Origin: Opitutaceae bacterium
GTDB lineage: Bacteria; Verrucomicrobiota; Verrucomicrobiia; Opitutales; Opitutaceae
Assembly (NCBI GenBank): GCA_030648295.1
Contig: JAUSID010000177.1
Span: forward strand, 62,001-126,000
Reading direction: 5' to 3'
Length of the DNA: 64,000 bases
The translations under genes and the position numbers were made by a program. The notes under the pieces are model-generated. The model saw only the letters and a list, made by a program, of their open reading frames with translations. It had not been told where the DNA came from and made no database searches. Positions 53,351 to 57,714 of this stretch are shown here, one piece after another. The first letter of the stretch is position 1. Each line of letters starts with the position of its first letter.

Positions 53351-54835
53351 ATGGGTAAACCTACCGGCTTCATCGAGTATCTGCGCGAACTGCCCGTCGA
53401 CCGGACGCCGCCCGAGCGCGTCCGCGATTGGAAGGAGTTTCACCACCACATGGAGGAGAAGAAACTCCGCCAGCAGGGCGCGCGCTGCATGGACTGCGGT
53501 ATCCCGTTTTGCCATACGGGAAAGTTGATCAGCGGCATGGCCAGCGGCTGCCCGATCAACAACCTCATTCCGGAGTGGAATGACCTCGTTTACCGCGGGC
53601 TCTGGAAGGAGGCGCTCGACCGGCTGCACCAGACGAACAACTTCCCCGATTTCACCGGCCGGGTGTGTCCCGCGCCGTGCGAGGGGTCGTGCGTTCTCGG
53701 CATCAACGCCCCTCCCGTCACGATCAAGAACATCGAGTATTCGATCATCGAGCGCGGGTGGGAGGAGGGCTGGGTTGTACCCGAGGCGCCGAAGACCCGC
53801 ACGGGCAAGAAGGTCGCCGTCATCGGCTCGGGCCCGGCCGGACTTTCCGCCGCCGCGCAGCTCAATCGCGCCGGTCACCACGTCACCGTGTTCGAACGCG
53901 CCGATCGTCCCGGCGGACTGCTCATGTACGGCATCCCGAACATGAAGCTCGACAAGAAGGAGGTCGTGCTCCGCCGGATCAAGCTGATGGAGCAGGAGGG
54001 CATCCGCTTCATCTGCAATGCGAACGTCGGCGAGAACGTCGAGCCGCAGATGTTCCTGAAGGAATTCGATGCGACCGTCATCTGCACGGGCGCGACCCAG
54101 CCGCGCGATTTGCCGATCGAAGGCCGCAACCTCAAGGGCGTGCATTTCGCGATGGAGTTCCTGACTGAGAACACCATGGCGGTGCTTAACGGCGGCGCCG
54201 ATCACTGCCCGATCAACGCCAAGGGCAGGGACGTGGTCGTGATTGGCGGCGGCGATACCGGCACCGACTGTGTCGGCACCTCGATGCGCCACGGCTGCAA
54301 GAGCCTCCTGCAAATCGAGATTCTGCCCAAGCCGCCGCTCGAGCGTGCAGCGGACAATCCGTGGCCCGAATGGCCAAAGACGTACAAGATGGATTACGGC
54401 CAGGAGGAGGCGGCGGCGAAGTTCGGTGCCGATCCGCGCATTTATCTGACCACGGTGAAGAAATTCGTCGGCGACGACAAAGGCGCGCTGAAGGAGATCG
54501 TCACGGTCGAAATCAAGTGGGAGAGAAACGAGAAGGGCGGCTTCGTGCCGAAGGAAGTTCCCGGCACGGAAAAGACCCGCCCCGCTCAGCTCGCACTGCT
54601 GGCGATGGGTTTCCTCGGGCCGGAGCAGCCGTTGCTCAAAGAGCTGAAGCTCGACACCGATCCCCGCTCCAACATCAAGGCGGAGCACGAAAAGTACACG
54701 ACGAGCCTCAAGGGCATCTTTGCCGCCGGCGACTGCCGCCGCGGACAGAGCCTGGTGGTGTGGGCCATCAACGAAGGCCGTGGTGCTGCGCGCGAGTGCG
54801 ATCGGTATTTGATGGGGTATACGGACCTGCCGTAG
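53351..54835 (+). CDS. gltD: Glutamate synthase small subunit
   Basis: 494 residues. N-terminal cysteines for two 4Fe-4S clusters: CMDCGIPFC, then CPINN, then [12 protein letters not shown]-binding [13 protein letters not shown] and NADPH-binding [13 protein letters not shown] follow, and the C-terminal [16 protein letters not shown] closes the FAD site. It passes electrons from NADPH to GltB. Confidence 0.97.
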
Positions 54836-54889
54836 CCCGCATGTTTCTCACCGCGGCACCACGGGCTGCAACCAAGGGCGTCCCTCTTG

Positions 54890-54985
54890 GAAATCTTGAA
54901 ATCGGGCATCGGGCAATTTCCAATCCATTGAATTTGTCGGGTCTTCCAAATGACAGATTTTAGATGACCGATGACCGATTGGCTG
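54890..54985. repeat. Heptamer-periodic spacer after gltD
   Basis: On the minus strand, GGTCATC, GGTCATC, TAAAATC, TGTCATT and later CCCGATG, CCCGATT can be read in a 7-bp register through most of this spacer. No gene is seen between gltD and the PIN-domain gene. Confidence 0.65.
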
Positions 54986-55046
54986 ATGTCGCATCGTTGC
55001 GGCTCAAGCCGCGGGAGAAAAATTCCCGGCTCGAACGAATTTCTGG

Positions 55047-55466
55047 TTATTTCGGTGTCGGCATCAGCAGTGGGATCGCTTGGCGCCCGTTCCGCCGATA
55101 GATACGAAAATCGGTATCGATGGTCACCACCTCGGCTTCCGGGTGGAGTTCGCTGAGCCGCACGATACACGCGTCTGCGAGGTCCATCGGGACATTCGCG
55201 TAACGAAGGATGAGTTTCCGCAAGGACGCGGGATCCAACTCCGCGAGCGGAATAAGTCGAAGCGCGCCGGTTTCCAACAAGGCCATCAGTCCATCCGCGC
55301 CGCTGCGCGTCTGGGTCAGGAGATGATAGGTCTCTGCGATGACCACGTCACATGTCAGGAACGGGGGCTCCAATTCCGCGAAAACGGTGTTGGCCCACGC
55401 GCGGGCCGAATCGTTTTCGGACAGAAAGGCAACGAGCGGGCCGGTATCAACGATGACCTGAGTCAC
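55047..55466 (-). CDS. PIN-domain toxin (VapC-like)
   Basis: 139 residues from GTG 55466. Acidic PIN residues are seen in [12 protein letters not shown] (Asp), VIAETYHLL (Glu), [11 protein letters not shown] (two Asp) and [11 protein letters not shown] (Asp). PIN toxins are Mg2+-dependent RNases. The start overlaps the preceding small gene by 20 bp, the usual antitoxin-toxin arrangement. Confidence 0.87.
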
Positions 55467-55701
55467 GTCCGAATCCTTCCATGTACTTCTTGTTCGTCGA
55501 AAGGTCGGGCGGACCGCCCTTCACCGCCCCGGCCAGATGCCCGGCCAGCTCCCAAAAGGTCTTCTCTTTCGCCGGGCTGGTGGCCTTGAACGAAAACTCC
55601 TCGCCGGTCTTTTGATCGCGAATCCGAATCTCCCTCCCGGCCGCGGCAACCTTGCGCATCCGGCTGAACTTCCGTTGAAACTCACGCACCGTCGTCGTCA
55701 T
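55447..55701 (-). CDS. Antitoxin of the PIN toxin (Phd/YefM-like)
   Basis: 84 residues from ATG 55701. VREFQRKFSRMRKVAAAGREIRI resembles the Phd/YefM N-terminal DNA-binding fold, and the C-terminal half (TFWELAGHLAGAVKG) is the kind of segment that wraps the toxin. It overlaps the toxin gene. A 9-1-9 palindrome abuts its ATG and may be its operator. Confidence 0.75.
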   Translation of the reverse strand: MTTTVREFQRKFSRMRKVAAAGREIRIRDQKTGEEFSFKATSPAKEKTFWELAGHLAGAVKGGPPDLSTNKKYMEGFGRDSGHR

Positions 55702-55720
55702 GTCTGACACGGTGTCAGAC
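55702..55720. promoter_or_regulatory. 19-bp palindrome directly before the antitoxin start, candidate operator
   Basis: GTCTGACAC-G-GTGTCAGAC is a perfect 9-1-9 palindrome whose left end touches the antitoxin ATG. Autorepressing antitoxins bind such sites, but the position on top of the ribosome site is unusual and it could be a dispersed repeat instead. Confidence 0.6.
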
Positions 55721-55811
55721 TCGACGGTGCCGTCAAGCGGCGCGCCGTCGTGCGGCGGCCGGCACGGCGCCATGGAGGAATGATGCCCGTCGGGATTTTC
55801 ACCGACCGGGG

Positions 55812-56048
55812 ATGATAGGCGACTCGGCGACGTGGCCGAAACAGAACGCGGAGTTCTGGCGGACAAAAATCCTCGGTAATCAACGGCGAGATCGGGCAGT
55901 CAACCGGCTCTTGAAACTGGCCGGCTGGCGCGTGGTGCGGCTTTGGGAGCACTCGTTGACGAAAAAGCATGCCGCGCGCACCGCGGCGCGATTGAGGCGG
56001 TTGCTGGACTCAAAAGCGGGACCGATGACGAAGACTCCCCGCAGATGA
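55812..56048 (+). pseudogene. vsr: Truncated very-short-patch repair endonuclease (vsr)
   Basis: 78 residues. WPKQNAEFWRTKILGNQRRD followed by GWRVVRLWEHSL matches the C-terminal half of Vsr endonucleases (about 140-155 residues when complete). The N-terminal half with the catalytic Asp and most of the zinc site is missing, and no cytosine methyltransferase gene is near. Upstream sequence gives no matching fragment in other frames, so this is probably a deletion remnant. Confidence 0.72.
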
Positions 56049-56112
56049 CGTGAGTCGGCGGGGAGGGGGAACTTCAGCCCCGGGGGCCCTCGGATAGGGA
56101 TGGGCTGTCGAA

Positions 56113-56150
56113 TTACTAAGGCTTGACTTACTAAGTGTTCGCTTAGCAAC
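56113..56150 (+). repeat. Left hairpin repeat of the ATPase cassette
   Basis: At 56128-56150: TTACTAAG, four bases TGTT, then CGCTTAGCAAC, an imperfect palindrome around CTAAG. An extra half site TTACTAAG stands at 56113-56120. The 23-bp unit recurs in the same orientation behind the gene with only the four middle bases changed. Confidence 0.85.
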
Positions 56151-56158
56151 TTCCGGTG

Positions 56159-57556
56159 ATGCATTTCCTGCCCGTGCCCGGAGGATTTGTCGGTCGCCGC
56201 GCCGAACTTGCGGCGCTCGAGCGCCACTACAAGGCCCCGCGTTCCGGGCTGATCCCGGTCTACGGCCGCCGCCGGGTGGGAAAGACCGAACTGCTGCTCC
56301 AGTTCGGCACGGGCAAGGCCACGGTCTACTTCACCGCGAGCGACAAGCTGCGTACGCCGCAAATCATCGACTTCGTTCATGCCGCGGCCGAATGGCTGGA
56401 GGCTCCCCACCTCGCCGAGACGGCCCCGCAAAGCTGGGATGCGGCGCTGAAGCTCGTGCTCGGCGCCGCGCCGGCCAGCCGGAAGCTGGTTCTCGTCCTG
56501 GACGAATTCCAGTGGCTGTGCGCCTCGAGCCCCGAGTTGCCGTCCGTGCTCCAGCGGCTTTGGGATTTGGAGTGGCAGCGCAGCAACCGGCTCCTGCTCA
56601 TCCTCTGCGGATCGTTCATCGGCTTCATGGAGCGCGAGGTCCTCGGCGCGCGCTCGCCCCTGCACGGCCGGCGGACCGGCGCGCTGCGGCTCGAGCCATT
56701 TGGCTTTCGCGAAGCGGCCGAGTTTCATCCGCGCTGGTCGCGGGAGGAGCAGGCTCGCGCGTATTTTGTCTGCGGCGGAATTCCCGCCTACTTGCGGCGC
56801 TTCGCGCCCGAGCGCACCGTGGCGCAGAATGTCGCCACGGAGTTTTTTGCCGTGGACGCGTTTTTCCAGCGCGAACCCGATTTTCTGCTGCGCGAGGAAC
56901 TCGCGGAAGTGAAGCAGGCCGCCAGCGTGCTCGAGGCGACGGCGCGCGGCCGGCACAGCCAGAGCGATATTGCGCGCAGCATCGGGCTGAGCACGGCGGC
57001 GCTCGCGCCTCACCTCAAGAACCTCGTGGCGCTCGGTTACCTCGAGCGCGTGTTCCCGCTGATCCCGGGACGCCCGCCACGTACGTCGGTGCTCTACCGC
57101 GTTGCCGATCCGCTGCTGCGATTCTGGTTCCGATTCGTCGAACCGCATTGGAGCACGCTGCGGCGTTTCACCCCGGAGCGCGCCTTCGAACAGCTCGTCC
57201 TGCCCCAGTGGGACGCCTATTGCGGCGAAAGCTTTGAACGGCTGTGCCGCGAGGCGCTGCCGCTCCTCTACGCCGACGAGGGCGTGATGGGGAAATTCGA
57301 GGTGGGCGAGTACTGGGATCGCGAGTGCCAGATCGATGTCGTGGGTCTGCGGACCGATGGCCGGGTGGACCTGGGTGAATGCAAATGGCATGGGCGTCCC
57401 GCCGTCCCCGAAGTTCAACGGGAGCTCCGCGCCCGGGCGGCGCACTATCCTGCCCAGCGCCGCACTGTTCAGGAGCGGGTGTTTTTGCGCGCGCGTCCGA
57501 AGTCCGTCGCCGAAGGCGTGGTCGTGCACGACCTGGCGTCGCTCTACGCCGAGTGA
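56159..57556 (+). CDS. Archaeal-type AAA ATPase with C-terminal DUF234 (PD-(D/E)XK-like) domain
   Basis: 465 residues from ATG 56159 (GTG 56156 precedes it). GFVGRRAELAALERHY and Walker A GRRRVGKT (about 36-43) open a STAND-like ATPase domain; Walker B is LVLVLDEFQW (about 110-119). A winged helix follows at about 265-305 (SQSDIARSIGLSTAALAPHLKNL, here in part SQSDIARSIGLS). The C-terminus shows Asp393, Glu407 and Lys409 in IDVVG...LGECKW, the D-ExK pattern of a restriction-like nuclease fold. The role is unknown. Repeats on both sides suggest it moves or is controlled as a unit. Confidence 0.85.
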   Translation: MHFLPVPGGFVGRRAELAALERHYKAPRSGLIPVYGRRRVGKTELLLQFGTGKATVYFTASDKLRTPQIIDFVHAAAEWLEAPHLAETAPQSWDAALKLVLGAAPASRKLVLVLDEFQWLCASSPELPSVLQRLWDLEWQRSNRLLLILCGSFIGFMEREVLGARSPLHGRRTGALRLEPFGFREAAEFHPRWSREEQARAYFVCGGIPAYLRRFAPERTVAQNVATEFFAVDAFFQREPDFLLREELAEVKQAASVLEATARGRHSQSDIARSIGLSTAALAPHLKNLVALGYLERVFPLIPGRPPRTSVLYRVADPLLRFWFRFVEPHWSTLRRFTPERAFEQLVLPQWDAYCGESFERLCREALPLLYADEGVMGKFEVGEYWDRECQIDVVGLRTDGRVDLGECKWHGRPAVPEVQRELRARAAHYPAQRRTVQERVFLRARPKSVAEGVVVHDLASLYAE

Positions 57557-57584
57557 AGGCGCGACTCGGCTGTTCAGCGGCGGG

Positions 57585-57607
57585 TTACTAAGCGCCCGCT
57601 TAGCAAC
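57585..57607 (+). repeat. Right hairpin repeat of the ATPase cassette
   Basis: TTACTAAG, four bases CGCC, then CGCTTAGCAAC: a direct copy of 56128-56150. Here CTAAGCG and CGCTTAG form a perfect 7-bp stem. It lies 29 bp behind the ATPase stop. Confidence 0.88.
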
Positions 57608-57714
57608 CCGGCCGCCTCGTCGGGTCGGCCAAGATGCACCTTTGCTTTCCTCTCGTCGTTCAAATCCGCTTTGCGGTTGCTCCCTTTGGGGCGAACCGTT
57701 CGTCTTCTCACCTC

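Follow-up and report, generated by a model that had tools for sequence, protein, structure and literature searches.

The repeats on either side of an ATPase-nuclease gene from an Opitutaceae bacterium are probably an operator array bound by the protein that the gene encodes, judging by their arrangement here and in relatives. Throughout, "the window" is the whole stretch of DNA that was analyzed (64,000 nucleotides). A sequence-only reading of it had described direct copies of a 23-bp hairpin repeat around the gene and considered that the protein could bind them as an autoregulator, a suggestion that is supported by the conserved 15-bp step and by the restriction of the array to this gene in the genomes searched, both documented below. 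The pattern TTACTAAG-N4-CGCTTAGCAAC does occur twice, exactly as claimed (56128-56150 with the loop TGTT, 57585-57607 with the loop CGCC), and is absent from 100 shuffles of the window. The claimed spacing of 9 bp before and 29 bp behind the gene is correct to within one base: the gap behind the upstream copy is five bases to the GTG at 56156 or eight to the ATG at 56159, and the downstream copy follows the stop codon (57554-57556) after 28 bases. An additional upstream half site (56113-56120) is real as well, and is the first of three units. Seen as a whole, the upstream sequence is one array of three near-palindromic units in exact 15-bp steps, and the downstream copy consists of two units with the same exact step (Table 1). 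The 23-bp hairpin is a slice of this tandem array, namely two neighboring units, and direct and inverted readings coincide because each unit is nearly palindromic.

Table 1. Array units, genes and protein domains around the ATPase-nuclease gene (window positions).
Feature	Position	Strand	Remarks
PIN-domain toxin-like gene and small overlapping ORF upstream	55047-55758	-	PF01850; ORF matches no family
C-terminal remnant of vsr mismatch endonuclease	55812-56045	+	NCBIfam vsr, model positions 78-118 of 119
Array unit U1, dyad 56116 (earlier "half site")	56109-56123	+	15-bp period
Array unit U2, dyad 56131	56124-56138	+	TTGACT (56123-56128) resembles a -35 box
Array unit U3, dyad 56146	56139-56153	+	Right half degenerate; ends 2 bases before GTG
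ATPase-wHTH-DUF234 gene, 466 aa	56156-57556	+	Start GTG 56156 or ATG 56159
STAND/MNS-type ATPase (ATPase_2, residues 11-215)	56186-56800	+	Walker A GRRRVGKTE and Walker B LVLDEF intact
Winged helix-turn-helix (residues 255-299)	56918-57052	+	HTH_IclR E 3.4e-5, MarR_2 E 5.8e-5; proposed array binder
DUF234, PD-(D/E)XK-like nuclease core (D394, E408-x-K410)	57125-57394	+	
Downstream array unit D1, dyad 57588	57581-57595	+	
Downstream array unit D2, dyad 57603	57596-57610	+	

Taken alone, the upstream array of the window is weak by the repeat-structure test (p 0.08). A simple inverted-repeat score, which suits a single long hairpin and not a tandem array, even places the site at chance level (p 0.5). 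A promoter scan at the window gene detected no full sigma-70 promoter despite the -35-like TTGACT.

The gene product had been read as a STAND-like ATPase with a DUF234 domain. This holds: ATPase_2 and DUF234 (residues 324-413, E 2.3e-16) were matched, a PD-(D/E)XK-like motif is present, and a winged helix is located between the ATPase and nuclease-like domains. In a profile search, residues 11-437 matched the PADLOC defense candidate PDC-S27 (E 1.1e-57). The gene is the sole match in its genome at E ≤0.001. The Walker-region residues G37, R39, R40, G42, K43, D116 and E117 are invariant in 57 aligned rows, and D394, E408 and K410 of the D...ExK motif are kept in at least 90% of them (alignment A1 excluded 12 of 68 alignable relatives; alignment A2 is 42 rows cut from A1). 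Since both motifs are conserved, the protein looks enzymatically intact from its sequence.

The AlphaFold2 model of the window protein has a mean pLDDT of 94.7. In a fold search, model residues 2-327 aligned with 2qen (Z 22.4, rmsd 3.4 over 304 residues) and 2fna (Z 20.7, rmsd 3.5 over 296 residues), with Orc2 (1w5t, Z 16.3) and then human ORC subunits and plant NLRs among the lower matches. For the C-terminal domain modeled alone (pLDDT 94.3), the best Foldseek E-value was 2.5e-3, with none at 0.001. VIA-align placed 1y88 (function unknown) at the top with Z 9.1, and the remaining top rows were mostly nucleases (McrBC chain M, Z 9.0; MspJI, EndoMS and Can2, 8.6 each), at Z values near background level. 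Missing fold matches are given no evidential weight here.

Relatives were collected from several sources. GTDB contigs yielded 7 loci. Matches were present in 17 of 200 genomes of the window's family (E 1e-20, the window's own included), in 54 of 387 genomes of its phylum, in 8 of 195 genomes of the phylum of an Archangium MAG and in 12 of 297 genomes of an acidobacterial phylum (both E 1e-60), and in 3 of 398 genomes of the phylum of a MAG titled Gammaproteobacteria (Pseudomonadota; E 1e-30), a number too small to treat this group by itself; its loci (L133-L135) are outside the scored rows. Among plasmid records, 159 had a match and 29 regions were fetched. The 81 relatives (window included) gave 74 rows for the repeat-structure test after exclusion of rows with a missing N-terminus or a contig end (L072, L073, L075, L019, L020, L047 and L081); L006/L073 nonetheless visibly carries an array. 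L117 was excluded from the plasmid test for its uncertain start.

Arrays precede the gene in many bacterial and archaeal relatives. The array words differ between clades, and the 15-bp period is kept. ACTTASTAAGT is found in the window's nearest relatives, and ACTTGWCAAGT in members of the window's own family and of the Archangium-phylum and acidobacterial sets. Words like TTGACTCAAC occur in L074/L086, words like GTTACGTTACG in L078/L087/L089/L091, and words like AGTATAATACT in Rhodothermus plasmids and acidobacterial members, with the similar GTATCATAC in Natronorubrum. Natrinema has ATAATCATTAT, and AATTATNATAATT is found in both Fusobacteria and Methanocaldococcus jannaschii.

The mean best repeat score at lag 15 was 9.2 in 25 close rows, 5.0 in 49 distant rows and 10.9 in 16 plasmid-borne upstream regions. 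Most other lags scored about 3; the exceptions were a harmonic at lag 30 and, for the distant set, a slight increase at 16. Coding sequence as a control (n=74) was flat at lag 15 (3.0). Among the 46 strong repeats (score ≥8) in the three sets, the best lag was 15 in 37 cases, 16 in 4, 30 in 2 and another value in 3. The units are dyad-symmetric, with 5.29 of 7 pairs matching in 45 arrays versus 4.41 in shuffles.

Single loci are less telling. Repeat-structure p-values of at most 0.01 were obtained for 17 of 25 close rows (the window is among the 8 that fail), for 15 of 49 distant rows, and for 12 of 16 plasmid-borne regions versus 6 of 75 neighboring genes, these controls being drawn from plasmid loci only. 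Control upstream regions are themselves enriched in repeats (15 of 75 at p ≤0.05), and weak single cases are therefore not evidence. The claim of an array rests on the common period and not on single loci, because single-locus statistics are weak and neighboring genes also have repeats.

The lag-15 pattern was measured on the first three sets together, and just 12 plasmid loci were fetched once it was known. With an array defined by a best lag of 15 and a repeat score of at least 8, 6 of 11 rows of this later set have one, versus 2 of 103 neighboring genes in the plasmid loci. L141 was dropped there as a near-copy of L125. When near-copies are dropped (L137/L138 and L139/L147 are such pairs), the count is 3 of 7, with L142 (best lag 13, equal score at 15), which is not part of the non-redundant total below, taken as failing. 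After removal of 9 near-copies, the non-redundant total, window included, is 40 of 91 rows with an array versus the same 2 of 103 neighboring genes (Fisher p 1e-13); the other 51 of the 91 rows miss the definition.

The array has limits on the protein tree (FastTree, midpoint root for drawing; 100 rows, from which L141 and L142 are absent). The array label requires 22 changes versus 33 after shuffling (0 of 500 shuffles as low), a clustering that is helped by near-copies. The main clade (support 83) has arrays in 43 of its 69 rows. A sister clade, in which L021 and L022 have a 16-bp period instead, has them in 2 of 13 rows, and a separate clade in none of its 16. Outside this separate clade, 53 of 76 rows have exactly 15 as their best lag, against an expectation of 1 in 32; within it, 1 of 16 does. 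The Bacteroides members L143 and L144 have no 15-bp array.

MarR/IclR-like winged helices usually bind dyads such as those of the array units. We propose that winged-helix dimers of the ATPase-nuclease bind each unit, and that neighboring protomers touch at the fixed 15-bp step, so that the putative promoter region would be coated cooperatively. The retention of the step while the words vary suggests that spacing is set by contact between neighboring protomers; 15 bp being about 1.4 helical turns, these would be expected on different faces of the DNA. Bound protein would keep its own synthesis low. Triggering of the ATPase would change the conformation and release the protein from the array, the gene would be de-repressed, and the PD-(D/E)XK domain could then act on nucleic acid. 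A phage or foreign-DNA signal would be the likeliest trigger, because the family is a defense candidate. If so, the arrangement suggests that the protein itself, and not a partner, restrains a potentially toxic nuclease.

Bound protein could instead activate the gene in a positive-feedback switch, like the STAND activators MalT and IniR. Activators that join a STAND-like ATPase to a DNA-binding domain are known, and one of the fold matches of the window protein (8bob, Z 14.4) is an entry that concerns how the maltose system is negatively regulated. IniR binds the iniBAC promoter and induces it (PMC5760070). In annotated plasmid members, the array lies 1 to 68 bases from the start codon. The distance is 12-68 bases outside L116, L118 and L121, and at 20-68 bases, as in many members, there is room for activation. 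In L116, L118 and L121, however, the array reaches to 1-6 bases from the start, and in the window it ends 2 bases from it, where bound protein would block polymerase. Repression is probably favored over activation for this reason, as far as the layout in these members can tell, and we regard an activating role as unlikely.

The regulator could also be a different host protein, MarR-like or nucleoid-associated, with the ATPase gene as a mere target. MarR-type operators resemble the array half-sites, and regulator genes adjoin the gene in some plasmid loci (L120, L128, L132). Against this, neighboring genes differ between unrelated loci, so that the constant partner of the array is the ATPase protein, which it accompanies across phyla and into Archaea. 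The array is also private to the ATPase gene in the genomes searched. In the whole genome of the window (G000, 9,122,190 bases), TTACTAAG-N4-CGCTTAGCAAC with up to 3 mismatches matched only the two copies flanking the gene (the second was listed again on the other strand), versus 1 match for the pattern read backwards; the 23-bp word is not scattered elsewhere in this genome. Likewise, every array-word match (up to 3 mismatches) in G000, G043, G566 and G567 is at the ATPase gene, with 1 or 2 chance matches per strand for the reversed control in each. In G570, where only the word of paralog L078 was searched, both matches flank L078. G568, whose contig ends inside the gene, had no array-word match, versus 5 per strand for the reversed control. 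Solitary arrays were thus not found in five genomes (G000, G043, G566, G567 and G570).

To a moderate degree, the words also seem to track the protein's own recognition helix. Words are more alike where helices are more alike, over and above what resemblance of the whole proteins accounts for (partial Mantel p 0.02, 25 rows; p 0.0008 for pairs under 60% identity). The helix window ranks fourth of 74 for covariation, and this is moderate evidence because three other windows, at residues 53-78, score higher. Within G570, which has four paralogs, L074 and L078 differ in their word, and each repeats its own word behind its own gene. A separate host regulator is, on balance, quite unlikely, and autoregulation by the ATPase-nuclease is the preferred reading.

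A more far-reaching form of autoregulation is possible, though doubtful. The array might be a docking rail that holds the ATPase-nuclease as an ordered inactive oligomer, one chain then being sensor, repressor and effector. Loss of the complex, for instance when a phage takes over the promoter or a nucleotide signal arrives, would arm the nuclease and open the gene at once. Were this true, conservation of the step to the single base from Bacteria to Archaea, with words left free, would reflect protein-protein geometry. The 15-bp step is in any case common to members from Verrucomicrobia to haloarchaea and Methanocaldococcus.

Downstream copies are rare. Comparison of the upstream array with the first 185 bases past the stop codon in 67 rows with enough sequence, window included, detected a copy of the gene's own upstream word in the window, L012, L074 and L078. 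For the window, L074 and L078 the match exceeds chance (p 0.0012), and for L012 it is weaker (p 0.012); L032 and L048 gave scores too, through sequences unlike the array. The expectation that the same palindromic repeats recur on both sides of the gene was borne out upstream in many relatives and mostly failed downstream. The simplest reading of the downstream array in this minority of members is a candidate second, auxiliary operator, for example for looping.

The sequence-only reading had also considered the repeat-gene-repeat unit as a minimal mobile or selfish cassette, with ends that the nuclease would recognize. The presence of direct copies on the two sides of the gene in the window, L012, L074 and L078 would fit, as would the patchy distribution in the family (17 of 200 genomes) and the 67-73% identical relatives in MAGs labeled as other phyla, though such labels may be binning errors. 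The cassette does not stand up to the comparisons. A downstream copy is present in 4 of 67 rows only, and solitary arrays are missing from the five genomes. The window and G043 have the gltB-gltD neighbor in common; the closest relative (L012, 82% identical) carries the gene at this gltD-linked position, followed by another gene than in the window, and the common locus points to descent in place. Decay is by plain deletion: the degenerate relatives L019 and L020 (in G067 and G091) have lost the array and the ATPase half in a deletion of about 650 bp, which begins about 12 bases before the array position and leaves a 3' part still 97% identical to L016. A cassette is very unlikely.

The surroundings are those of an accessory gene. 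An accessory island with a toxin-antitoxin pair and a broken vsr had been proposed. The PIN-domain gene (PF01850) and a truncated vsr are indeed present, but the supposed antitoxin ORF matches no Pfam or NCBIfam family at E-values up to 1. The PIN-domain gene sits between gltD and the ATPase gene, and the G043 locus is without such genes there. None of 14 same-genus loci compared has the window's sequence behind gltD, so that they offer no clean empty site, and the loss in G067 and G091 is a deletion and not such a site. In 10 other same-genus genomes there is no match to the ATPase gene at E 1e-20. The ATPase-nuclease gene is accessory, and the region beside the conserved gltBD pair looks as if it were an insertion hotspot. 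Together, the pattern of presence and loss bears the marks of a gained-and-lost defense-type gene and not of a repeat-bounded element.

Behind gltD (window 54835-56108; L057-L070), a few pairs of the 14 loci have a stretch in common with each other, never with the window. In plasmids of two Rhodothermus marinus strains (L116, L117), the gene follows csm5, which is part of a type III-A CRISPR system, and in haloarchaeal plasmids (L122, L128) it is close to orc1/cdc6 replication genes. Viral spread of the gene or array is not supported, as a pattern scan of viral contigs revealed neither a relative nor an exact array word; phage records gave 8 distant matches (25-35% identity).

The name hairpin repeat fits the downstream copy, which is unusually stable as RNA (-19.2 kcal/mol, z -3.0), but not the upstream copy, which folds no better than shuffles (z 0.1), and it is the wrong common denominator because only one of the two forms such a hairpin. 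The idea that the repeats act as RNA hairpins, as attenuator or terminator, has the stable downstream copy in its favor, but it does not accommodate the unremarkable upstream copy, the lack of an Rfam match for the repeats and of a terminator-like site at the downstream copy in our scan, or the tandem DNA periodicity, and is the most improbable explanation of all. The downstream hairpin could add putative termination to the operator function.

Several known systems resemble parts of the proposed autoregulatory arrangement. The archaeal STAND ATPases SSO1545 (2fna) and PABY2304 (2qen), which we take to belong to the ATPase class named MNS, have the ATPase and winged-helix fold in common with the window protein. 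Their chains of about 350 residues align to model residues 2-327, whereas most of the DUF234 part of the window protein lies outside. The archaeal initiators Orc1/Cdc6 likewise combine AAA+ and winged-helix domains (Orc2, 1w5t, Z 16.3) and bind repeat elements beside their own genes. To our knowledge, they have no nuclease domain, and nothing in the present data marks the array as an origin element. MalT has an ATPase and a DNA-binding domain in one chain. We know of no nuclease domain in MalT or IniR, and as far as we know both regulate other operons, whereas the array word of the ATPase-nuclease is at no other gene in the five genomes. IniR has the same union of ATPase and DNA-binding domain in one chain (PMC5760070).

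PDC-S27 is described as an ATPase fused to PD-(D/E)XK that is particularly common in Archaea, with 3503 occurrences there and 4562 in Bacteria; most PDCs are said still to await experimental validation (PMC12988326). The window protein has the same fusion, and the model matched over residues 11-437. The main text of that source has no promoter array ("promoter" and "palindrom" both with 0 occurrences; PMC12988326), and we found no report of a 15-bp array for the family in the open-access literature. For PDC-S27, the array provides a ready-made candidate DNA ligand, a predicted regulator and a simple test of geometry. We also considered a listing of archaeal families that is presumably the one by Makarova et al. 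An entry in it, "AAA+ superfamily ATPase fused to HTH and RecB nuclease domains, likely involved in defense" (PMC4158269), may denote the present family, to judge by its description. Dedicated regulators of defense genes and islands have been described in the WYL-domain family and in RptR (PMC9122601, PMC12255303). There the regulator is a separate protein, whereas here a single chain would serve as regulator, ATPase and nuclease.
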